Part shown: piece after piece, positions 1,582-25,919 of the stretch
How positions within the stretch are numbered: position 1 is the first letter of the stretch
How the letters are laid out: every line of letters begins with the position of its first letter
Origin: Variovorax sp. WS11
GTDB lineage: Bacteria; Pseudomonadota; Gammaproteobacteria; Burkholderiales; Burkholderiaceae_C
Assembly (NCBI RefSeq): GCF_010499245.1
Contig: NZ_JAAGOW010000004.1
Coordinates: 744,001-808,000, forward strand
Direction: 5' to 3'
Length of the DNA stretch: 64,000 bases
Position numbers and translations under genes: made by a program
Notes under the pieces: model-generated
The model's input: the letters and a program-made list of their open reading frames with translations, nothing else
Database searches by the model: none
Told to the model about the DNA's origin: nothing

Positions 1582-4175
1582 CAGGCGGATTGTGTGGAGG
1601 CTAGAAAGTCCTGCGCAAAGCGCTGCAGCACGCCGCCGGCCTCGTAGATCGAGACCTCCTCGGCCGTGTCGAGCCGGCAGGTCATGGGCACCTCGACATG
1701 TTCGCCGTTCCTGCGCCGGACCACCAGTGTCAGGTCTGCACGCGGCCGGCGTTCGCCCACCACGTCGTAGGTCTCGGTGCCGTCCAGACCCAGCGTCAGC
1801 CGATTGACGCCGGGCTTGAACTCCAGGGGCAGCACACCCATGCCGATCAGGTTGGTGCGGTGGATGCGCTCGAAGCCCTCCGCCGCGATGGCCTCCACGC
1901 CCGCCAGCCGCACGCCCTTGGCCGCCCAGTCGCGCGAGCTGCCCTGGCCGTAGTCGGCACCGGCGATGATGATCAAGGGCTGCTTGCGCTGCATGTAGGT
2001 CTCGATGCCCTCCCACATGCGCACCACATGGCCCTCGGGTTCGATGCGGGTCAGCGAACCCTTCTTCACCTCGCCGTCGACCACGGCCATCTCGTTGACG
2101 AGCTGCGGGTTGGCAAAGGTCGCGCGCTGCGCCGTCAGGTGGTCGCCGCGGTGCGTGGCGTAGGAGTTGAAGTCTTCCTCGGGCAAGCCCATCTTGTGCA
2201 GGTATTCGCCGGCCGCACTGTCCGGCAGGATGGCGTTGGACGGCGACAGGTGGTCGGTCGTGATGTTGTCGGGCAGCACGGCCAGCGGGCGCAGGCCGCG
2301 CAGCGTGCGCTCGCCGGCCAGCGCGCCTTCCCAGTAGGGCGGGCGGCGGATGTAGGTGCTCTGCGGCCGCCAGTCGTACAGCGGGCTGATGGACTCGCCG
2401 CTGGCCACGCCGATCTTGAACATCGGGTCGTAGACCCGCCGAAAATGCTCGGGCTTGACGCTGCTGGCGACAATCGCGTCGATCTCGGCATCGCTGGGCC
2501 AGATGTCCTTCAAGGTCACGGGCTGGCCGGCGGCATCGAGCCCCAGCACATCCTTCTCGATGTCGAAGCGAACGGTGCCGGCGATCGCATAGGCCACGAC
2601 CAGCGGCGGCGAGGCCAGGAAGGCCTGCTTGGCATAGGGGTGGATGCGGCCGTCGAAGTTGCGGTTGCCCGACAACACGGCCGTGGCGTACAGGTCGCGT
2701 TCGATCACCTCCCGCTGGATCACCGGGTCGAGCGCACCGGACATGCCATTGCAGGTGGTGCAGGCAAAGGCCACGATACCGAAGCCCAGCTTCTCGAGCT
2801 CGGACAACAGGCCCGCTTCTTCCAGGTACAGCTGCACGGCCTTGGAGCCGGGTGCCAGCGAGGACTTGACCCAGGGCTTGCGCACCAGGCCACGCGCGTT
2901 GGCGTTGCGCGCCAGCAGGCCGGCGGCGATCACGTTGCGCGGGTTGCTGGTGTTGGTGCAGCTGGTGATCGCCGCGATGATCACGGCGCCGTCGGGCATC
3001 CGGCCGGGCACTTCCTCCCACGGGGCCGCGATGCCGCGCGCGGCGAGCTGGGAGGTCGGCAGGCGCTTGTGCGGATTGGACGGTCCGGCCATGTTGCGCA
3101 CGACCGAGGACAGGTCGAAACGCAGCACCCGTTCATACTCGGCGGTGGCCAGTGCGTCCGACCACAGGCCCGCTTCCTTGGCATAGACCTCGACCAGGCG
3201 GACCTGCTCGTCCTCGCGCCCGGTCAGACGCAGGTAGTCGATGGTCATCCGGTCGATGGAGAACATCGCCGCCGTGGCGCCGAACTCCGGCGTCATGTTG
3301 GAGATGGTCGCTCGGTCGCCCAGCGTCAATGCCGAGGTGCCTTCGCCATGGAACTCCAGGTAGGCGCCGACCACTTTCTGGTGGCGCAGGAATTCGGTCA
3401 GCGCCAGCACGATGTCGGTCGCGGTGATGTGGGGCTGCGGCTTGCCGGTCAGCTCCACGCCGATGATGTCGGGCAGCCTCATCCAGGACGCGCGGCCCAG
3501 CATCACGCTCTCGGCTTCGAGGCCGCCCACGCCGATCGCGATCACGCCGAGCGCGTCGACATGGGGGGTGTGGCTGTCGGTCCCGACCAGCGTGTCGGGG
3601 AAGGCCACGCCGTCCTTGGCATGGACCACCGGCGACATCCGCTCCAGGTTGATCTGATGCATGATCCCGTTGCCCGGCGGGATCACTTCGACGTTCTTGA
3701 AGGCCTTCTTGGTCCACTCGATGAAGTGGAAACGGTCCTCGTTGCGACGGTCTTCGATCGCGCGGTTCTTGGCGAACGCATCCGGATCGAAGCCGGCAAA
3801 TTCAACCGCCAGCGAATGATCCACGATCAACTGGGTCTGCACGACGGGGTTCACCTGGGCCGGATCGCCGCCCATGTCGGCGATGGCGTCGCGCAGGCCG
3901 GCCAGGTCCACCAGCGCGGTCTGGCCCAGGATGTCATGGCAGACGACGCGCGCCGGGAACCACGGGAAGTCGCGCTCGCGCTTTCGCTCGATCAACTGCG
4001 ACAGCGATTCGTTCAGGATGGCCGGGTCGCAGCGGCGCACCAGGTTCTCGGCATGCACGCGCGAGGTGTAGGGCAATCGGTCGTATGCGCCGGGTGCGAT
4101 GGCATCGACGGCGGCGCGGGCGTCGAAGTAGTCCAGCGCGGTGCCGGGCAGGTTCTTTCGGTAGGAGGCGTTCAT
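1581..4175 (-). CDS. acnD: Fe/S-dependent 2-methylisocitrate dehydratase AcnD
   Basis: This is a full-length (864 aa) aconitase-family enzyme that dehydrates 2-methylcitrate to 2-methylaconitate. The 4Fe-4S ligand motifs SCTNTSNP and ACTTCNGMSG are both present, as is the C-terminal swivel domain with a YGQGSSRDWAAKG loop. Its placement between prpC and prpF distinguishes it from AcnA and AcnB. A GTAGGAGG ribosome site lies just before the ATG. It begins 21 bp after the prpC stop, so it is co-transcribed with prpC. Confidence 0.95.
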   Translation of the reverse strand: MNASYRKNLPGTALDYFDARAAVDAIAPGAYDRLPYTSRVHAENLVRRCDPAILNESLSQLIERKRERDFPWFPARVVCHDILGQTALVDLAGLRDAIADMGGDPAQVNPVVQTQLIVDHSLAVEFAGFDPDAFAKNRAIEDRRNEDRFHFIEWTKKAFKNVEVIPPGNGIMHQINLERMSPVVHAKDGVAFPDTLVGTDSHTPHVDALGVIAIGVGGLEAESVMLGRASWMRLPDIIGVELTGKPQPHITATDIVLALTEFLRHQKVVGAYLEFHGEGTSALTLGDRATISNMTPEFGATAAMFSIDRMTIDYLRLTGREDEQVRLVEVYAKEAGLWSDALATAEYERVLRFDLSSVVRNMAGPSNPHKRLPTSQLAARGIAAPWEEVPGRMPDGAVIIAAITSCTNTSNPRNVIAAGLLARNANARGLVRKPWVKSSLAPGSKAVQLYLEEAGLLSELEKLGFGIVAFACTTCNGMSGALDPVIQREVIERDLYATAVLSGNRNFDGRIHPYAKQAFLASPPLVVAYAIAGTVRFDIEKDVLGLDAAGQPVTLKDIWPSDAEIDAIVASSVKPEHFRRVYDPMFKIGVASGESISPLYDWRPQSTYIRRPPYWEGALAGERTLRGLRPLAVLPDNITTDHLSPSNAILPDSAAGEYLHKMGLPEEDFNSYATHRGDHLTAQRATFANPQLVNEMAVVDGEVKKGSLTRIEPEGHVVRMWEGIETYMQRKQPLIIIAGADYGQGSSRDWAAKGVRLAGVEAIAAEGFERIHRTNLIGMGVLPLEFKPGVNRLTLGLDGTETYDVVGERRPRADLTLVVRRRNGEHVEVPMTCRLDTAEEVSIYEAGGVLQRFAQDFLASTQSA

Positions 4176-8955: not shown

Positions 8956-9300
8956 ATGACTATTCTGTACGTTGGTATCGATCTGGCCAAGTCTGTTTTT
9001 GCCATCCACGGGGTCAATGAAGCGGGCAAGCCCGAACTCATATCTCCCAAGGTGACACGGGCCAAGCTGGTGGAACTGATCGCGTCGCTACCGCCCTGCG
9101 TGATTGGGATAGAGGCGTGCTCCGGTGCGCACCACTGGGCGCGCCAGTTCATGGCGCACGGGCACACGGTGCGCCTGATGGCGCCCAAGTTCGTCAGCCC
9201 CTATCGAATGTCCGGCAAGCATGGCAAGAACGACGCCGCAGACGCGGCGGCGATCTGCGAGGCAGTGCAGCGCCCGAACATGCGCTTCGTGCCCATCAAG
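8956..9300 (+). pseudogene. IS110-family transposase, N-terminal part (interrupted)
   Basis: This is the first ~115 residues of an IS110 transposase (DEDD/RuvC-like domain): YVGIDLAKSVFAIHG, then GIEACSGAHHWARQ and the GKNDAADAAAIC motif. A GAAAGGAGAAG ribosome site precedes the ATG. The gene stops matching the family at VPIK, and the missing part resumes at 12219; joining 9300 to 12219 restores an uninterrupted frame (VPIK-SLEQQSQLSVHR). The break is the insertion of the serine-recombinase element at 9301-12218. About 130 bp upstream is noncoding and may belong to the IS. Confidence 0.9.
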
Positions 9301-9337
9301 ACGGACATCTCATACTGCACCTTGTGCTGATGCACTT

Positions 9338-9613
9338 GTAGACAGGGCAAGTATCCGTCACCCATTTCACCCGCTGTTCGCCAAGACCTTCGACGTAGTC
9401 AAGCGCCGACGCGTGTCCGGTGTGGACACGCTGACGCTGCGGCATTCTGAGCACGGCACGCTGACGGTTCCACGCGAGTGGACAGACCTGGCCGATCCGG
9501 ACCCCTTGGTCACACCAGGGCAAACCGCGGCGCGCCTGAACGCGCGTCGCTTGCTCGAGCTGGCTGCGTTGCTGCGAGAACTCAACGCTCGCGAACCCGC
9601 CGCCGAGACTTGA
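9338..9613 (+). CDS. DUF5372-like small protein of element A
   Basis: This encodes about 90 residues containing IRHPFHPLFAKTFDVVKRR, GVDTLTLRH and EWTDLADPDP. It aligns along its length with the protein at 21875-22156 (IRHPFHP, GVDTLILRD, EWTDLAAPNP). No ATG, GTG or TTG lies in frame near the homologous N-terminus, so the start is uncertain; translation may rely on an unusual start or on the interrupted host frame. Proteins of this kind accompany DUF6788 and large serine recombinases. Its biochemical role is unknown. Confidence 0.55.
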   Translation, partial: VDRASIRHPFHPLFAKTFDVVKRRRVSGVDTLTLRHSEHGTLTVPREWTDLADPDPLVTPGQTAARLNARRLLELAALLRELNAREPAAET

Positions 9614-9669
9614 CGGGGAGCGCACAATGGTGGCACTATCAGTACAGTCTTATACGTGTTCTGACAAAG

Positions 9670-10002
9670 ATGGAGAACAAGACCTCCTCCTCTCTTCGGA
9701 GACGCCGTGCGCAGCTGCTACGCACGCTGCCGTCCATGGAACACCTGTTGCGCGGCTCGATCATCGAGCGCTACCTGCGTTGTGGGAAACCAGGGTGCAA
9801 GTGCGCCCAAGGCGAAGGTCACGGTCCCAAGTACTACCTCTCGGTGAGTTTCCCTGGCCAGCGTCCGCAGATGAGCTACGTGCCCCAGGGCGACTACGAG
9901 GCAGTCAGCCAGCACCTGTCGAACTACCAGCTGCTTCGCACCGCCATCGAAGAGATCTGCGAGATCAATCGCGAACTACTGCGCCGCAGAGAGGCGCTCT
10001 GA
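9670..10002 (+). CDS. DUF6788-like protein of element A
   Basis: This 110-residue protein has a basic N-terminus, GSIIERYLRCGKPGCKCAQG (a Cx4CxC cluster), then GHGPKYYLSVSF and a helical C-terminus ending in ELLRRREAL. The protein at 22205-22537 has the same length and the same motifs. The cysteine cluster suggests metal binding and a DNA-binding accessory role for the recombinase; this is inference, as the family has no assigned function that I know of. Confidence 0.75.
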   Translation: MENKTSSSLRRRRAQLLRTLPSMEHLLRGSIIERYLRCGKPGCKCAQGEGHGPKYYLSVSFPGQRPQMSYVPQGDYEAVSQHLSNYQLLRTAIEEICEINRELLRRREAL

Positions 10003-10020
10003 GATGCCGGGGCGGACGAG

Positions 10021-10141
10021 TTGAACCGTCGAGCCGCCCCCGCAATCGATACCGTAGCCGCTGGCGTGGTGCTCACCAGCATGGTCCAGAGTTGGCTCGA
10101 CGCTCACCGCAACTGCGATCCATTGGCGACGGAGGCGAGCG
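10021..10141 (+). other. conserved small frame between DUF6788 and the recombinase (element A)
   Basis: A frame beginning with TTG at 10021 is open through this interval and continues in a second frame over the start of the recombinase as far as 10632. Its first ~40 codons (AIDTVAAGVVLTSMVQSWL, then EASDE) resemble the equivalent stretch of element B at 22547-22676 (PIDLSVGATLLANMLIAMI, then EACDE). Conservation in a spacer suggests a real small protein, but the evidence is only this one comparison. Confidence 0.35.
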
Positions 10142-12205
10142 ATGAACGGCAAGATCACCGAGGAGCACCGGCGCAAGCCGGCGTACGTGTACATACGTCA
10201 ATCGACCCCGAGTCAGGTGCGTCATCATCAGGAGAGCACCCAGCGCCAGTACGCGCTGCGGGAACGGGCGTTGGAACTGGGATGGGAGGAGAGTGCGATA
10301 CGGGTGCTCGATCGGGACCTGGGCCGCTCGGCGCAGACGGCGGGTCGGGAGGACTTCAAGACCTTGGTGGCAGACGTGTCGATGGGACAGGTGGGAGCGG
10401 TGTTTGCTCTGGAGGCGTCGAGACTGGCCCGCTCCAACGTGGATTGGCACCGCCTGCTACAACTTTGCGCGTTCACCGACACGCTGGTCATCGACGCGGA
10501 CGGCTGCTACAACCCTGCCGACTTCAACGACGGGCTGTTGCTCGGGCTCAAGGGCACCATGGCGCAAGCCGAACTGCACTTCTTGCGCGCCCGCCTCCAG
10601 GGTGGCAAGCTGAACAAGGCCAAGCGCGGTGAACTGCGTGTCCCACTGCCGGTGGGACTTTGCTACGACGCACGAGGCCAGGTCGTTGTGGATTCGGATC
10701 AGGAGGTGCGTGGCGCCATTGCACTGATCTTCCGGCAGTTCCAGGCAAGCGGCAGTGCCCACGCGGTGATGCAGTGGTTCGTCACCCACCAGCTTCGCTT
10801 CCCCAAGAGGCGCCACGGCGGCGTGTGGAACGGCAAGCTGGAATGGGGAGATCTGACTTACGAGCGCACCTTGCAAGTGTTGAAGAACCCGTCCTATGCG
10901 GGGGCCTACACCTTCGGTCGGCATCAATGCCAGCGGGGGCTCACGCCCGACGGGGAAGTTCGCAGCCATATCAAGACGGTCGAGCGCTCACAGTGGCGGG
11001 TGCTGTTGCTCAACCATCATGAAGGATTTGTTGACTGGGAGCAGTTCGAGCGCAATCAACTGCGCTTGGAAAAGAACCGTACCAGCGTGCCGCCGATGAT
11101 TCCGGGAGGAGCGCCACGCGAAGGTGCCGCGCTGTTGCAAGGCCTGCTGATGTGCGGCAAATGCGGGCGTCGGCTGTGCGTGCGCTACAGCGGCAATGGC
11201 GGGCTCTACCCCACCTATCTCTGCGGCGCCAAGCACCGCGAAGGCCTGTCAACCAAAGACTGCATGAGCGTACGGTGCGACCCCCTAGATGTGGCCGTTG
11301 CCGAGCAGGTGCTCGACGCACTACAACCAGCCGAATTGGAACTCGCCATGAGCGTGCTGACGAATCTGGAGGGACGTGATCAAGCGCTCATGCACCAATG
11401 GAGAATGCGCCTCGAGCGCGCCGAGTACGAGGCAGCCCTGGCGGAGCGGCGATACCAGGAGGCCGATCCCAGCAATCGTCTGGTCACCAGTACCTTGGAG
11501 CGTTGGTGGAATGAGGCGCTATTGCGCGTGGAAGAAATAAAACATCAGAAAGCCGAGGCCCAACATCGCACGGCGCAGGTGATCACCGAGGAGCAAAGAG
11601 CTGAGGTGATGACGCTGGCGCGGGAGCTGCCGCGCCTATGGAATGCCCCCAGCACTTCAGCCAAGGATCGCAAGCGAATGCTACGTTTGCTAATCAAAGA
11701 TATTACCGTCGAGAAACGTCTGGCGCCCAAGCAGGCGGTGCTGCACATCCGATGGCAAGGCGGCGCCTGCAGCGACGTGACCGTAGAACTGCCGTTGCCG
11801 CTTGCCGACCGCGTTCGCTGCTGCGAAGTTACAGTAGCTCGTGTGCGAGCGCTTGCGCGCAATCTGAGCGATGCGCTGATTGCGCAGCAACTCAACCGAG
11901 AGAGAGTCAGAAGCCCACTTGGCAAGGTATTTAACGACTCGATGGTCAGATGGATTCGCTGGCGCCACGCAATCCCCGCACCTATGCTCAAGAAGGCCGA
12001 GGAATTGACTGTTCCGCAGATCGCAAAGCGCTTCGGAGTCAGCGTCAGCAAGGTCCATTATTGGATTGCACGCAAGATACTCGCTGCACGTCAGCTGAAG
12101 TCGAGAGGGCCATACTGGATCACGCTCGATGAGCTCACCGAGCGAAAGCTACGAGCGAGCCAACCGCAAGGATCGAAAAGCGCTGCTGTGAGAGGTGCAA
12201 TATGA
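10142..12205 (+). CDS. large serine recombinase of element A
   Basis: This 687-residue recombinase has the resolvase catalytic domain first (YIRQSTPSQV carries the nucleophile Ser; DRDLGRSA and ALEASRLARS follow). Next come the recombinase domain (about 185-290), a zinc ribbon (CGKCGRRLCVR with a distal C), a coiled-coil region and a C-terminal helix-turn-helix (LTVPQIAKRFGVSVSKVHYW). It is the only obvious enzyme of element A and is expected to integrate and excise it. It is clearly paralogous to the recombinase at 22677-24773. The stop codon lies only 13 bp from the element's right boundary. Confidence 0.93.
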   Translation: MNGKITEEHRRKPAYVYIRQSTPSQVRHHQESTQRQYALRERALELGWEESAIRVLDRDLGRSAQTAGREDFKTLVADVSMGQVGAVFALEASRLARSNVDWHRLLQLCAFTDTLVIDADGCYNPADFNDGLLLGLKGTMAQAELHFLRARLQGGKLNKAKRGELRVPLPVGLCYDARGQVVVDSDQEVRGAIALIFRQFQASGSAHAVMQWFVTHQLRFPKRRHGGVWNGKLEWGDLTYERTLQVLKNPSYAGAYTFGRHQCQRGLTPDGEVRSHIKTVERSQWRVLLLNHHEGFVDWEQFERNQLRLEKNRTSVPPMIPGGAPREGAALLQGLLMCGKCGRRLCVRYSGNGGLYPTYLCGAKHREGLSTKDCMSVRCDPLDVAVAEQVLDALQPAELELAMSVLTNLEGRDQALMHQWRMRLERAEYEAALAERRYQEADPSNRLVTSTLERWWNEALLRVEEIKHQKAEAQHRTAQVITEEQRAEVMTLARELPRLWNAPSTSAKDRKRMLRLLIKDITVEKRLAPKQAVLHIRWQGGACSDVTVELPLPLADRVRCCEVTVARVRALARNLSDALIAQQLNRERVRSPLGKVFNDSMVRWIRWRHAIPAPMLKKAEELTVPQIAKRFGVSVSKVHYWIARKILAARQLKSRGPYWITLDELTERKLRASQPQGSKSAAVRGAI

Positions 12206-12218
12206 AATCATCGTCAAG

Positions 12219-12890
12219 AGCCTGGAGCAGCAATCGCAACTGAGCGTGCATCGAGTGCGACAGGGATTTGTCGAGCAGCGCACCGCAACCATCAACCGAA
12301 TTCGCGGGTTACTCAGCGAGTTCGGCATCGTGCTCCCGCTCAAGGCGTCGACGGTGCGCAGCCAAGCCATGGCGTGCCTGGAGGATCTGCCCGGCTGGAG
12401 CAATACCGTCGTCGGCGATCTGCTCAGCGAATTGACGCGGCTGGACGAGCGGATCGCGCTCTATGACCGACACATCGGACAGATGGCGCGCGCCGATGCC
12501 CGAGCTCAGCAACTCATGCTTCTGCCAGGGATCGGCCAAACCACCGCCACTGCAATGGTTGCGATGATCGGCAACGGTCATGAGTTCAGGTGTGGTCGCC
12601 AGTTTGCCGCCTGGCTTGGCCTAGTGCCCAGCCAGTACAGCTCGGGCGGCAAGGCGCGACTGGGGCACATCACGAAGACAGGGGACTCGTACATGCGATC
12701 GCTGCTGGTTCTGGGTGCCCGTGCGGTACTCCATGCTGCTCAGAACAAAACCGACGGCCTCAGCCGATGGGCGGCGGCGCTGTTCTCGCGACGCGGCTAC
12801 TGGCGTGCGATCGTGGCCATCGCTGCAAAGAACGCGCGTATGGCCTGGGCCGTACTCTCCCGAAGGGAGCAGTTCACGATGCTGTTGTAG
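12219..12890 (+). pseudogene. IS110-family transposase, C-terminal part (interrupted)
   Basis: This is the remaining ~223 residues of the transposase that begins at 8956: SLEQQSQLSVHRVRQGFVEQ, a central coiled-coil region, then the Tnp_IS116/IS110/IS902 domain with LMLLPGIGQTTATAM, FAAWLGLVPSQYSSGGK and LGHITKTGDSYMRSLL. The catalytic serine region (SSGGK) is intact, so the gene would be whole if element A were excised precisely. An apparent ATG at 12203 is an artefact of the junction. Confidence 0.88.
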
Positions 12891-21740: not shown

Positions 21741-21840
21741 TCAAGCATTGGCCGGCTTGAGCAAGGCCCCGGCCGGGATCTCGCCGTACTGCAGATAGCG
21801 CCACAGCGCGATGACCAGTTTTCTCGCAAGGGCCACCACG
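21741..21840 (-). pseudogene. IS110-family transposase, C-terminal tail
   Basis: The minus strand reads VALARKLVIALWRYLQYGEI then PAGALLKPANA and a stop, the usual C-terminal end of IS110/IS1111 transposases. It completes the gene whose main part is at 24797-25840; joining the shared CACG (21837-21840 and 24797-24800) restores RVGIV-VALARK. Element B separates the two. Confidence 0.85.
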
Positions 21841-21874
21841 GTTAACGTCAACTGCACTCTCGTCCAACCAGTCG

Positions 21875-22156
21875 TTGGGTTGGGCCGAGATTCGGCATCC
21901 GTTTCATCCACGTAGGGGGCAGCGCTTTGCTGTACTGAAGGCGCGATACGTTGCGGGTGTGGACACGCTGATCCTTCGGGATGATGGCGAGCGCCTCAGC
22001 TTCGCCATCGCTCGCGAATGGACCGACCTCGCCGCGCCCAATCCATCCCAGCGAGTTGACGGCTCGACGGCTCGGCTTGACCTGGGCTCGCTGTGCGATC
22101 TGGTCGCGCTGCTTGAGATCCTGGCAGCTCGCTCGTGCGGAGGGCTTGTCAAATGA
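21875..22156 (+). CDS. DUF5372-like small protein of element B
   Basis: This 93-residue protein probably starts at TTG (MGWAEIRHPFHPRRGQ) and contains RYVAGVDTLILRD and EWTDLAAPNP. It is homologous to the first ORF of element A, with the same position and strand. No catalytic motif is evident. Constant association with DUF6788 and the recombinase suggests an accessory role in integration or its control. Confidence 0.6.
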   Translation: MGWAEIRHPFHPRRGQRFAVLKARYVAGVDTLILRDDGERLSFAIAREWTDLAAPNPSQRVDGSTARLDLGSLCDLVALLEILAARSCGGLVK

Positions 22157-22204
22157 GCGTTCATGAACTATTGTCGGACCAGTTATATCTGTGGTCCGTC
22201 AAGA

Positions 22205-22537
22205 ATGACAGAGCCGACCTCTTCAGCCCTCAAGCGACGCCGCAGGCAACTGCTGCGCAAGATGCCGCCGCTGGACGCTGTGCTTCGGGGCTCCTTGATC
22301 GAACGCTACAAGCGCTGCGGCAATCCAAACTGCAAGTGCGCAGAGGGTCCCGGACACGGACCCAAGTACTACCTCTCGGTGAGCTACTCGGGCAGGTCGC
22401 CTCAAATGGACTACGTCCCCCAGGCCGAGCACGCGCAGGTATGCGAGCACCTGGCCAACTACGCCCAAGTGCGCGAGATCTTGGAGGAGATCTCCGAGAT
22501 CAACCACGAACTGCTGCGTCGGCGAGAGCCACTCTGA
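22205..22537 (+). CDS. DUF6788-like protein of element B
   Basis: This 110-residue protein is equal in length to its counterpart in element A and keeps GSLIERYKRCGNPNCKCAEG, GHGPKYYLSVSY and the closing ELLRRREPL. I chose the ATG giving MTEPTSSALKRRRRQ because it matches the other copy; the frame is open 14 codons upstream. The Cx4CxC cluster suggests a metal-binding fold, and the very basic N-terminus suggests nucleic-acid contact. Confidence 0.75.
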   Translation: MTEPTSSALKRRRRQLLRKMPPLDAVLRGSLIERYKRCGNPNCKCAEGPGHGPKYYLSVSYSGRSPQMDYVPQAEHAQVCEHLANYAQVREILEEISEINHELLRRREPL

Positions 22538-22546
22538 GGTGCAACG

Positions 22547-22676
22547 GTGAGCCAGGTATCACCCCTGTCGCCCACCGTCCCCATCGATCTCTCAGTTGGC
22601 GCGACTCTGTTGGCCAACATGCTGATCGCCATGATCGAGGCCGACCCGACGCTCATGTCCAGTGTGGAGGCCTGCG
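22547..22676 (+). other. conserved small frame between DUF6788 and the recombinase (element B)
   Basis: A GTG-initiated frame (SQVSPLSPTVPIDLSVGATL) fills this spacer and continues over the recombinase start in a different frame to 23170. Its N-terminal ~40 codons resemble the equivalent region of element A, including an acidic DE near the recombinase ATG. It may encode a small fourth protein of the element; support is limited to this pair. Confidence 0.35.
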
Positions 22677-24773
22677 ATGAACACGACCATCACTCAAGCG
22701 CACCTGAGCAAACCGGCGTACATCTACGTGCGGCAGTCGACACCGGGTCAGGTGCGTCACAACCAGGAGAGCACCGAGCGCCAATATGCGCTGCAGGACA
22801 AGGCACGGGCCATGGGGTGGCCGCAGGGGTCGATCCGCGTGCTGGATCGGGACCTGGGCCGCTCGGGGGCACAGATCGCCGGTCGCGAGGACTTCAAGAC
22901 GTTGGTGGCGGATGTCTCGATGAGCCAGGTCGGAGCGGTGTTTGCCCTGGAGGTGTCGCGCCTGGCGCGCTCGAGCCTCGACTGGCATCGGCTCCTGGAA
23001 CTGTGTGCCCTGACGCACACCCTGGTGATCGATACCGATGGCTGCTACGACCCCGCGGACTTCAACGACGGACTGGTGCTCGGAATCAAGGGCACGATGG
23101 CCCAGGCCGAACTGCATTTCTTGCGCGGGCGCCTCCTGGGCGGCAAGCTGAACAAGGCGCAGAAGGGTGAGTTGCGCTTCCCCTTGCCGGTAGGCTTTTG
23201 CTTTGACGACCACGACCGCATCGTCATGGATCCCGACGACGAAGTGCGGGGGGCCGTGCAACTGGCGTTTCGAGTGTTCCGGGAAACGGGCAGTGCCTAC
23301 GCCGTTGTCCAACGCTTTGCAAGGGACGGCCTGCGCTTCCCAAAGCGCGCCAATGGAGGTGTGTGGGCTACCAAGCTCGTTTGGGGTCGACTCAGCCAGA
23401 GTCGTATTCTGACCCTGCTGAGGAACCCGATGTATGCCGGCAGCTACGTTTTCGGCCGCCGCCAGTACGCCAGAAGCATCACCCCCGAGGGCGAGGTGCG
23501 CAAGAATGTGCGGGCGGTCCCCATGCCGGAGTGGCGTGTCCACTTGCGTGAACACCACGAGGGCTACCTCACCGTGGAGGAGTTCGATCAGAACCAGCGG
23601 CGCCTGGCGAATAACCGCAATAACGCGGAAGGGACCGTGCTCAGCGGTCCGGCACGCGAAGGCCTTGCGTTGCTCCAGGGAATGCTGTTGTGCGGCACCT
23701 GCGGGCGGGCGGTCCTAGTGCGCTATCAAGGCAACGGCGGCATCTATCCCACCTACCAATGCACTTGGAGGCGCCGCGAAGGGCTGGCCACGAAGAACTG
23801 CTTCAGTGTGCGCACCGAGCTGCTCGACGACGCCATCTGCGCAGAGGTATTCAAGGCCCTGAAGCCAGCCGAACTCGAGTTGGCCTTGGCAGCCTTGAAC
23901 GACCTTGAGCAGCGCAACCAAGCCGTCATGCGTCAGTGGCACATGCGAATCGAGCGCGCCGAGTATGACTGCGCATTGGCCAAACGCCGCTATGAAGAAG
24001 TCGACCCGTCCAATCGCCTGGTCGCCGCAAGCCTTGAGCGCCGCTGGAACGAAGCCATGTTGCACATTGACGAAGTCAAGTCCGAAGCCGCAAATTTCCA
24101 GACCCAGAAGGCCCACGTCGTGACGCCCGAGCAGAAGACGAAGGTTCTGGCTCTGGCTCGTGATCTGCCGCGCGTCTGGCGCGCTGCGACGACCCAGTCG
24201 AAGGATCGCAAGCGGATGCTGCGACTGCTCATCCGCGACATCACGGTCGAGAAACTCACTGATGCGAGACAGGTCGTTCTGCACGTTCGCTGGCAAGGGG
24301 GTGCCTGCACCGACACCACGATTCCTCTCCCAAGCCCGATCGCAGACCAAATGCTTTACCCGCGCCAGATCATCGAACGCATACGAGAACTGTCCAGCCG
24401 GCTCTCCAATCAACAGATCGTCCAGGCCTTGAATGAAGAGGGCCTTCGCAGTCCGCGTGGACTGCCAATTACGCGGGCAATGATCAAATGGATCCGCATT
24501 CGCTACGCCGTGCCTTCCGTCTGTCTGATGCGTCCAGAAGAGCTCACAGCCGGGCAACTTGCTGATCGCCTATCCGTGAGTGTCTATTTTGTTCGCTACT
24601 GGATAAAGCGCGGAGTTATTGATGCACGCCATCTCGGCGCACAGGGCCCCTGGTGGATCACGATCACCGACCAACAGGAGCAGCAACTCCGTGATCGCAT
24701 ACGCACCTCAGGTCACTTGAAGAACCATCGCGAGACGCTACCCGACGTCTATCATCCCAACTCTCAGCTGTGA
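22677..24773 (+). CDS. large serine recombinase of element B
   Basis: This 698-residue paralogue of the recombinase at 10142-12205 starts at the ATG giving MNTTITQAHLSKPAY, which matches the other copy. The nucleophile Ser is in YVRQSTPGQV, with DRDLGRSG and ALEVSRLARS following. The zinc ribbon is CGTCGRAVLVR with a distal C, and the C-terminal helix-turn-helix is LTAGQLADRLSVSVYFVRYW. No frameshift or stop is seen, so it looks functional. Strong divergence from copy A argues for separate arrival rather than recent duplication. Confidence 0.93.
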   Translation: MNTTITQAHLSKPAYIYVRQSTPGQVRHNQESTERQYALQDKARAMGWPQGSIRVLDRDLGRSGAQIAGREDFKTLVADVSMSQVGAVFALEVSRLARSSLDWHRLLELCALTHTLVIDTDGCYDPADFNDGLVLGIKGTMAQAELHFLRGRLLGGKLNKAQKGELRFPLPVGFCFDDHDRIVMDPDDEVRGAVQLAFRVFRETGSAYAVVQRFARDGLRFPKRANGGVWATKLVWGRLSQSRILTLLRNPMYAGSYVFGRRQYARSITPEGEVRKNVRAVPMPEWRVHLREHHEGYLTVEEFDQNQRRLANNRNNAEGTVLSGPAREGLALLQGMLLCGTCGRAVLVRYQGNGGIYPTYQCTWRRREGLATKNCFSVRTELLDDAICAEVFKALKPAELELALAALNDLEQRNQAVMRQWHMRIERAEYDCALAKRRYEEVDPSNRLVAASLERRWNEAMLHIDEVKSEAANFQTQKAHVVTPEQKTKVLALARDLPRVWRAATTQSKDRKRMLRLLIRDITVEKLTDARQVVLHVRWQGGACTDTTIPLPSPIADQMLYPRQIIERIRELSSRLSNQQIVQALNEEGLRSPRGLPITRAMIKWIRIRYAVPSVCLMRPEELTAGQLADRLSVSVYFVRYWIKRGVIDARHLGAQGPWWITITDQQEQQLRDRIRTSGHLKNHRETLPDVYHPNSQL

Positions 24774-24796
24774 GGAGTGCTTTATGAAGCCACCAT

Positions 24797-25840
24797 CACG
24801 ATGCCTACGCGACGCATGCGCTGGCCCCCACCAGCGAAGCGCCGGTTGAACCACTGGGTCAAGGCGCTGTCGGGCTGCCAGCGCAGCCAGCACCAAGCGA
24901 GTTCGACCAGCAACGCACGCGCTCGCTTGTTGCCCGCCTTGCTGATGCCTTGCTCGATCTGGCTGTCGCCGCTGGCATACGGCGTGGGTGCCAACCCCAA
25001 GCAGCCGGCCAGCTCGCGTCGGTTGGCGAAGCGCCGCCAGCCAAACACCTCCTTGACCAATACCCAGGCGCCCTTGGGTCCGATGGCGCGCAGCTGCGCC
25101 AATTGCGCCACCTGTGGCTGTTTGCCATCGGCCAGTTCCTGGCGCCGCTCGGCTTCCATCGCCTTGACCTGAAGCCTGACCAGCGCCAGCCGCGCGCTCT
25201 CGCGCTCGATCTCGGCGCGCAACACAGGCGGCACTTGCTCGCCATGGCGCGCCCACCAGGCGGGCCAGTCGCGACCGCCGATGATGACGTGCGGACGCAG
25301 GTTATGTAGCACCAGCAGCGAGGCGATGCGATTCACGTGCGAGGTGCGCTCCTGCGTCAGCCGGGCGAGCTCGCGGTGTGTGCGGCGCGCGTCTTCGTCC
25401 TCGGGCGTGGGCTCATGCACCACCGACCACACCTGTTCGCCGCGATGATGGCGCAGCAGCATCGCCAACAGCTTGTCGCCATCGAGCCGGTCGGTCTTGG
25501 CCCGCCTGGCGTGTCGGTTCACTTCAATGCTGGAGGAGTCGACCACGATGTCGTCGACACCCTGCCCGATTAGCCAGCGGTGCAGCCACCAGCCGTCGCG
25601 CCCTGCTTCGTAGCAGGAATGCACCGTGGCCTGCGGCTCGAGCTTGCAGCGCTCCAGGGCCTTGCAGATGCAGTGCGCAACGGCGGCCGTGTCGCCGGCG
25701 TCCAAGTTGTACCGGCTCGGGCCCCGGTGGCCATCGCTCGCCGTCACCTTCCAGGATTTGTCGCCGAGCTCGAAGCTCATGTACAACTCGCCCGCGATCG
25801 CCGTATCCTTCACTTGTGGGACTGTCTGAGTTGTCGACAT
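24797..25840 (-). pseudogene. IS110-family transposase, main part (truncated by element B)
   Basis: This is the first ~347 residues of an IS110/IS1111-type transposase: MSFELGDKSWKVTASDG, SSSIEVNRHARRAKTDRLDG (DEDD domain), then RAIGPKGAWVLVKEVFGWRR and LAPTPYASGDSQIEQGISKAG, with the catalytic-serine region SGDS. The AAAGGAG ribosome site abuts an upstream ATG, so the ATG at 25840 (6-base spacing) is the likelier start. The C-terminal tail is at 21741-21840. The gene is otherwise intact. Confidence 0.88.
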
Positions 25841-25919
25841 TTCCATCTCCTTTTGTCACGAGGTTGAGGAAATCCCGTTTTAGCTAAACGGGTCCCGCTC
25901 GGGTAGTCCCACATAGCAT

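Follow-up and report, generated by a model that had tools for sequence, protein, structure and literature searches.

Small elements moved by a serine recombinase include Tn4451/TnpX and those of the IS607 type, whose enzymes of ~200 amino acids (aa) are paired with TnpB. The large serine recombinases (LSRs) described in the accessible text of Durrant et al. 2022 (PMC10083194) have attachment sites (attB) inside coding sequences, with related enzymes having a target gene in common; a magnesium chelatase/protease gene and a prolyl isomerase are among the example targets. Here we analysed a window of 64,000 nucleotides from Variovorax sp. WS11 (contig NZ_JAAGOW010000004.1, positions 744,001 to 808,000), which contains two elements of about 3 kb, A and B, each encoding a DUF5372 protein, a DUF6788 protein and an LSR. 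Comparison with their relatives makes it very probable that conserved coding motifs in the genes of other mobile elements serve as the attB sites of A and B, which would be minimal LSR elements.

Pfam analysis bore out the initial annotation of two DUF5372-DUF6788-recombinase elements inside IS110 transposase genes, with IS110 matches in the halves on both sides of A and on the right side of B, and NCBIfam agreed on IS110. The open frames flanking A match NF033542 (transpos_IS110) at profile positions 1-119 (8956-9330) and from position 114 (12195-12890). A is inserted in the sense direction of its host gene, with the junction at a KSLEQQ motif, and B is in antisense, close to the C-terminal end of another IS110 gene, with the junction RRVGIV|ALARKL; both orientations had been annotated in this way, and the limits of A drawn from TCAAG (9301-12218) are exact to the base. 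The recombinases of A and B are 59% identical, too little for B to be a recent copy of A, as the divergence of their proteins had indicated. The closest relative of A found (L026; loci from our searches carry L numbers) is located at A's position, with its IS110 split at profile position 115|116. Its element DNA is 94% identical to A, compared with 47% for the tested half of the IS110 flank protein. A-type sites in IS110 are those of the window, L026 and L039, the last two with an identical flank.

The same genome holds three full copies of B and a decayed fourth, located at the same base of four mutually different IS110 genes. The full copies are ~100% identical internally and the decayed one 95-100% per 100 bp; the IS110 sequence on the right falls to 66-96% identity per 100 bp, the change occurring exactly at the element end. 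Another IS110 copy (L159, 79% identical), which does not carry B, runs uninterrupted through the exchange point. The four occupied copies and this B-free copy place the crossover of B at an AC dinucleotide. The antisense site near the IS110 end had been annotated correctly, but its boundary bases shift by 3-4. On a plain reading of the alignments, the four copies would represent four insertions at one base of IS110. The B-free copy, an IS110 of the B-host type, is itself interrupted elsewhere (L176:1211-4502; own genome, C1:936.7-940.0 kb) by a different element with three adjacent open frames, tyrosine-recombinase-like and recombinase-in-trio-like by eye, so that another kind of recombinase element also occupies IS110. 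What looks by eye like an IS256-like transposase gene interrupts a further IS110 (L177:786-2096; own genome, C3:2871.6-2872.9 kb).

Relatives were gathered by recombinase homology, independently of their surroundings, giving 103 loci, seven of which have no recognisable right end (L032, L035, L037, L062, L070, L078 and L105). Once loci with identical 100-bp right flanks were merged, 87 remained, and removal of L109, which has no true right end, left 86 distinct sites; by this rule L039 was merged with L026, and L025 with L016, from which it diverges further on. Genome searches were positive in 5 of 100 genomes of the genus and 10 of 398 of the phylum, own genome included in both cases, and in 1 of 399 of the family, the own genome alone; the family and phylum searches used strict E limits and scored few candidates per genome. 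Since these searches yielded little beyond the own genome, most loci come from plasmids.

We assigned 82 of the 86 distinct sites to mobile-element genes: IS21 IstA (19), group II intron reverse transcriptase (15), IS21 IstB (14), IS66 (9), IS3/IS481-type rve (7), IS110 (6), other IS3 (5) and IS4 (3), with one site each in IS1380, IS5, IS91 and a tyrosine recombinase. Assignment was based on flank translation to the junction, pooled Pfam counts and single profile tests, and 59 of the 82 are backed by one-by-one profile matches, two of them weak (L100, rve, E 0.004; L127, E 1.6e-4). Pfam matches in 84 right fragments include rve (23), IstB (12), RVT_1 (6), Transposase_20 (6) and DDE_Tnp_IS66 (4), and those in 75 left fragments include IstB (10), Mu-transpos_C_2 (8), RVT_1 (7), GIIM (6) and rve_3 (6). 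At a background of 0.5, a deliberately high guess, the chance of 82/86 is 3e-20, for sites that are not fully independent. Scattered insertion in unrelated genes, set beforehand as the outcome that would speak against the IS110 preference, is contradicted by these counts and by the lineage-fixed motifs described below. Two loci outside the 86 also lie in mobile genes, L078 in a group II reverse transcriptase and L070 in IS91. In the latter, an IS91-type transposase (L070:764-1012 and 3601-3867) is split at the start of Y2_Tnp, beside an HPHxH motif recognised by eye.

Profile positions at the junctions point to one conserved motif per lineage, and near-identical elements have inserted independently, to the exact residue, into diverged hosts. 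For example, L133, L135 and L138, identical over 2,542 bp (rounded), lie on one Sinorhizobium medicae plasmid in three IstB genes that are 27-31% identical over the halves tested by local alignment, and all three hosts are split at 99|100, in the Walker A loop. IstB is also split at 203 (L074/L080) and at 177-178 (L099/L103). IstA hosts end at position 227 of 294 in 11/11 cases that match the IS21 IstA model (L018, L040, L060, L073, L082, L083, L093, L094, L101, L111 and L121), IS66 hosts at 341 of 387 in 4/4 tested, and IS3 hosts at 351 (L140, L114) or 307-314 (L072, L096, L097, L128). The group II reverse transcriptase (TIGR04416) is split at 70|71 (72 in L058) in 11/11 LGIP-type hosts with a match, in both orientations; a twelfth such host tested against TIGR04416, L031, gave no match. 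The elements of L067 and L068, 94% identical, have opposite orientations in IS66 transposase genes. Insertion in both orientations hints at a palindromic core in lineages hitting IS66 or reverse transcriptase. Identical elements also occupy istB genes at L103 and L107 of a Microvirga lotononidis plasmid; at L107 both flanks are the same IstB half, reading toward the element, an arrangement that suggests inversion through recombination between element copies.

A search of the own assembly revealed 12 relatives, of which 11 are full-length. A is present once, B in three full copies and the decayed one, and two further types, C and D, in four and three copies. The D copies are in IS4 transposases, and both tested hosts (L022/L024) are split at profile position 294 of 332. 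Of the C copies, L018 is in an IS21 istA and L019 in an IS481 transposase, both at the equivalent codon motif; L020 and L021 are in ordinary or unidentified genes. The four C sites have 13/36 bases in common near the exchange and 1/84 outside it (window chosen by eye), from which it follows that the C recombinase reads DNA and that L020 and L021 are look-alike sites. A further serine recombinase with a Recombinase domain (L178, own genome C2:1062033) is outside the A/B family.

These data bear on the safe harbour that the initial annotation offered as one possible reason for the preference. In one form of this idea, insertion is loose and only hits in dispensable transposon genes survive. The disrupted genes are indeed dispensable and a few ordinary-gene insertions exist, but lineages insert at the same profile position in hosts as diverged as the three IstB genes above, and the two off-target C sites have bases in common with the insertion sequence (IS) sites. 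A safe harbour without sequence specificity does not account for such residue-exact positions, and loose insertion with survivorship as the sole cause was rejected on the same grounds. We consider this explanation unlikely, and survivorship may add to sequence specificity rather than replace it.

Retention of the elements because they silence active transposons, in a role protecting the host or the integrity of a regulated gene, is equally improbable. The split motifs, named Walker A, the DDE glutamate region, YREK and reverse transcriptase LGIP^T, are ones that we take to be catalytic or structural, as such a role would favour; however, target conservation alone explains the choice of motif, and a decayed copy exists.

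A quick maximum-likelihood tree of 55 of the 103 recombinases, with SH-aLRT as its only support measure, was used to map target choice; it excludes rows that were truncated, broken, unlabelled or duplicated, and the label 'DDE_E' pools IstA with IS3/IS481 hosts split at the corresponding motif. The target label requires 20 changes on this tree (minimum 18), compared with a shuffled mean of 36.6, and a value as low was reached in 0/200 shuffles. Among 56 recombinase clusters at 90% identity, each multi-member cluster has one motif label, non-mobile sites aside. Target choice thus depends on recombinase lineage. A and B fall within an 11-row clade in which group II intron reverse transcriptase is the target of each of the remaining nine rows. 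Four of these nine form a group with B (support 99), and the tree leaves the exact place of A open. Given this placement and the two different IS110 motifs, IS110 targeting was probably, though not provably, gained twice.

The tree and survey also address the possibility that DUF5372-DUF6788-recombinase elements as a kind recognise IS110 DNA. The A type (window, L026, L039) and B type (four copies) do lie in IS110, so that the preference suggested in the initial annotation stands for these two lineages at their fixed sites. However, loci with the same three genes (L028-L030, L033, L053-L058) target group II intron reverse transcriptase, IS110 provides 6/86 distinct sites, and A and B use different IS110 motifs. 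IS110 specificity is therefore refuted as a family-wide rule and holds for a few sites of lineages A and B, making an IS110-specific parasite very unlikely. Alternatively, the host IS might carry and spread the recombinase genes as passengers, or gene conversion might copy them among IS. This is scarcely credible as a general cause and was rejected on element versus flank identities: L140-L142 have one right flank in common and may have travelled together, and the B hosts are related IS110 genes among which conversion is possible for B alone, but the same element occurs in different IS families (L018 in IS21, L019 in IS481), and in many pairs right-flank DNA is 56-67% identical and the element near 100%, which leaves little homology for conversion.

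Several points weigh against attB motifs in mobile-element genes as the explanation for this family. Of the 82 mobile-element assignments, 23 come from reading of junction translations and pooled Pfam counts. Four of the 86 sites are not mobile. L129 is in DctP and L130 in a peptidyl-prolyl isomerase, the gene at L021 looks by eye like a short-chain dehydrogenase, and that at L020 gave no Pfam match; L021 as not mobile and L108 as IS5 were read from translations, a CBS Pfam match at L021 coming from another frame. Outside the 86, L062 adjoins a peptidase M15 (not mobile or unclear). L020 and L021 carry the same element as the IS21 and IS481 copies, so specificity leaks. Many loci are plasmid-borne and plasmids may be IS-rich, and the survey covers this recombinase family alone. 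The motif search misplaced right ends in at least L036, L054, L075, L081, L109 and L131; nine loci have no left fragment (L027, L030, L034, L040, L060, L064, L108, L113 and L137), and only the left side can be read in L036, L041, L123 and L131. Finally, the ends of B form no significant inverted repeat, its score being reached in 1780/2000 shuffles, while the 18/30 repeat of A was equalled in 2/2000 (one unseeded run). Terminal inverted repeats as a general rule were thus rejected.

As integrative elements of ~3 kb moved by their own LSR, A and B would be excised as a circle on which the element's attachment site (attP) is rejoined, and one conservative crossover between this attP and an attB in a transposable element would insert them. 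Domain content and knowledge of the enzyme class point to this mechanism, and make it likely that the serine recombinase is the integrase, as initially presumed. The crossover would split the target gene and so probably inactivate it. The attB would differ per lineage: IS110 for A and B, and reverse transcriptase, IstA/IstB, IS66, IS3/IS481 or IS4 for their relatives. Because the target motifs are conserved and multicopy, many low-cost targets would be offered per cell and in new hosts. At a guess, DUF5372 and DUF6788, or a helix-turn-helix protein in the C type, might help synapsis, directionality or target choice. It is also fairly probable, with less confidence than for A and B themselves, that the DUF5372-bearing serine-recombinase elements are a widespread superfamily of hyperparasites of mobile elements, with an indispensable catalytic or structural motif as attB in each lineage and diversification driven by target switching between transposon families; candidate motifs are Walker A, the DDE glutamate region, YREK, the IS91 HUH region, LGIPT, IS110 KxxEQQ and IVALAR. 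If so, targets could not easily escape by mutation.

Across the family, the design is a left end, DUF5372, a clade-dependent accessory gene, the recombinase and a right end, spanning ~2.5-3.4 kb. The right-end sequence annotated as common to A and B is present and recurs in relatives as variants of GAGGTGCA.TATGAA followed by ~12 bp, and many relatives have a variant of ACTGCAC at the left end. DUF5372 is encoded upstream in 94/103 loci (E <= 1e-3; seven of these weak, 18-25 bits). DUF6788 occurs in 19 loci, exclusively those of the A, B or reverse-transcriptase type if L032 and L035, to which no target is assigned, are counted with them; a search for it was negative in L027, L031, L059, L061 and L137, all reverse-transcriptase loci; some C-type elements have an annotated helix-turn-helix protein in its place. 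An element of three or four genes had been proposed for the window. Three are clear and the fourth is uncertain, a 41-codon open reading frame without a family match; B has a small frame similar to it by eye.

Structure modelling predicted an SH3-like barrel plus helix for DUF5372 of B, with weak SH3/KOW-like structure matches (best E 0.013), and the same model, made for B's copy, predicts a barrel plus helix for that of A. No PDB match at E <= 0.001 was found for the DUF6788 model. Pfam E-values for recombinases A and B are, respectively, 2e-18 and 1.2e-17 (Resolvase), 2.8e-14 and 6.3e-18 (Recombinase), and 1.6e-10 and 1.2e-09 (Zn_ribbon_recom). Alignment showed a conserved YxRQS in both, which presumably contains the catalytic serine of this recombinase class.

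Table 1. Positions of elements A and B, their genes and ends, and the interrupted IS110 genes in the window.
Feature	Position	Strand	Evidence or remark
IS110 transposase, 5' half split by A; ends RFVPIK	8956..9300	+	DEDD_Tnp_IS110 (Pfam)
Element A, 2,918 bp	9301..12218	+	TCAAG at 9296-9300 and 12214-12218 marks limits; limits identical in L026/L039
Left end of A, imperfect inverted repeat of right end (18/30)	9302..9331	+	Sequence
DUF5372 of A, annotated Y4bD/Y4pK in relatives	9329..9613	+	PF17342, E 2.3e-18
DUF6788 of A, conserved CG.P.C.CA.G.GHGPKYYLS (alignment)	9670..10002	+	PF20586, E 1.6e-30
Possible small fourth open reading frame of A, 41 codons	10020..10145	+	Pfam: no family match
Large serine recombinase A, 687 aa	10142..12205	+	Resolvase, Recombinase, Zn_ribbon_recom
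Right end of A: GAGAGGTGCAATATGAAATCATCGTCAAG	12190..12218	+	Sequence; family right-end consensus
IS110 transposase, 3' half split by A	12219..12890	+	Transposase_20, E 8.1e-26 (Pfam)
IS110 C-terminal end cut off by B (VALARKLVIALWRYL...)	21744..21836	-	Flank translation; four-copy alignment
Element B, 2,963 bp, antisense in IS110	21837..24799	+	Exchange at AC (21835-21836 / 24798-24799)
DUF5372 of B	21875..22156	+	PF17342, E 1.1e-21; structure model pLDDT 85.1
DUF6788 of B	22205..22537	+	PF20586, E 3.9e-34; structure model pLDDT 88.8
Large serine recombinase B, 700 aa	22671..24773	+	Pfam; three full protein-identical copies in genome
IS110 N-terminal part split off by B	24800..25846	-	Transposase_20; NF033542 8-313

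Elements of this kind are already known as sequences, since plasmid records annotate a recombinase family protein, DUF6788, and DUF5372 or Y4bD/Y4pK. The last names are given to the DUF5372 gene beside a 'recombinase family protein'; Y4bA-D / Y4pH-K are genes on the symbiotic plasmid of Sinorhizobium fredii NGR234. Literature searches on Y4bA with recombinase or Y4bD yielded no description of limits or targets, and searches of the open literature (mostly titles and abstracts, with few subscription papers) for DUF6788 and for serine integrase attB in transposase genes yielded none of a target rule. The gene set is thus known as annotation and the target rule is apparently undescribed. If true, these would be a class of mobile elements with the conserved genes of other mobile elements as their niche, and would act against IS elements and group II introns, having been retargeted many times in evolution. 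Closely related LSRs whose attB sites differ and are mapped precisely would then form natural series useful for learning how such enzymes read DNA, and the 'interrupted transposase + hypothetical + recombinase' annotations of soil and symbiotic plasmids may be explained.

IS4321/IS5075, which target Tn21-like inverted repeats, and the group II intron RmInt1, which targets ISRm2011-2, likewise have fixed sites in multicopy mobile DNA; they differ from the present elements in that they use other enzymes and are not known to range across many transposon families. The best NCBIfam match of both recombinases is XisF (NF041201), which excises the fdxN element, a developmental element in a host gene, but at 57 and 81.1 bits both are below the cut-off of 375. 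They do not resemble the IS607 type either, being 687-700 aa long with no TnpB among the Pfam-scanned proteins of A and B (some small open reading frames were unscanned). LSR membership agrees with the Resolvase, Recombinase and zinc ribbon domains present in both, and with precise insertion at a short common core (AC for B, TCAAG for A) with no long target duplication. Tn4451/TnpX is also a small serine-recombinase-driven element, from which A and B differ in having no DUF4368 Pfam match. DUF4368 is present in 63% of the multi-targeting/TndX-like LSR clade in the accessible text of PMC10083194, and is absent among the Pfam matches of A and B (E <= 0.01). The elements studied here are comparable to the LSRs of that text in having attB in coding sequence, L130 likewise being in a prolyl isomerase, but in the passages considered the enriched targets are cellular, such as competence genes and the chelatase, with no mention of transposase motifs as attB, whereas genes of mobile elements predominate here.

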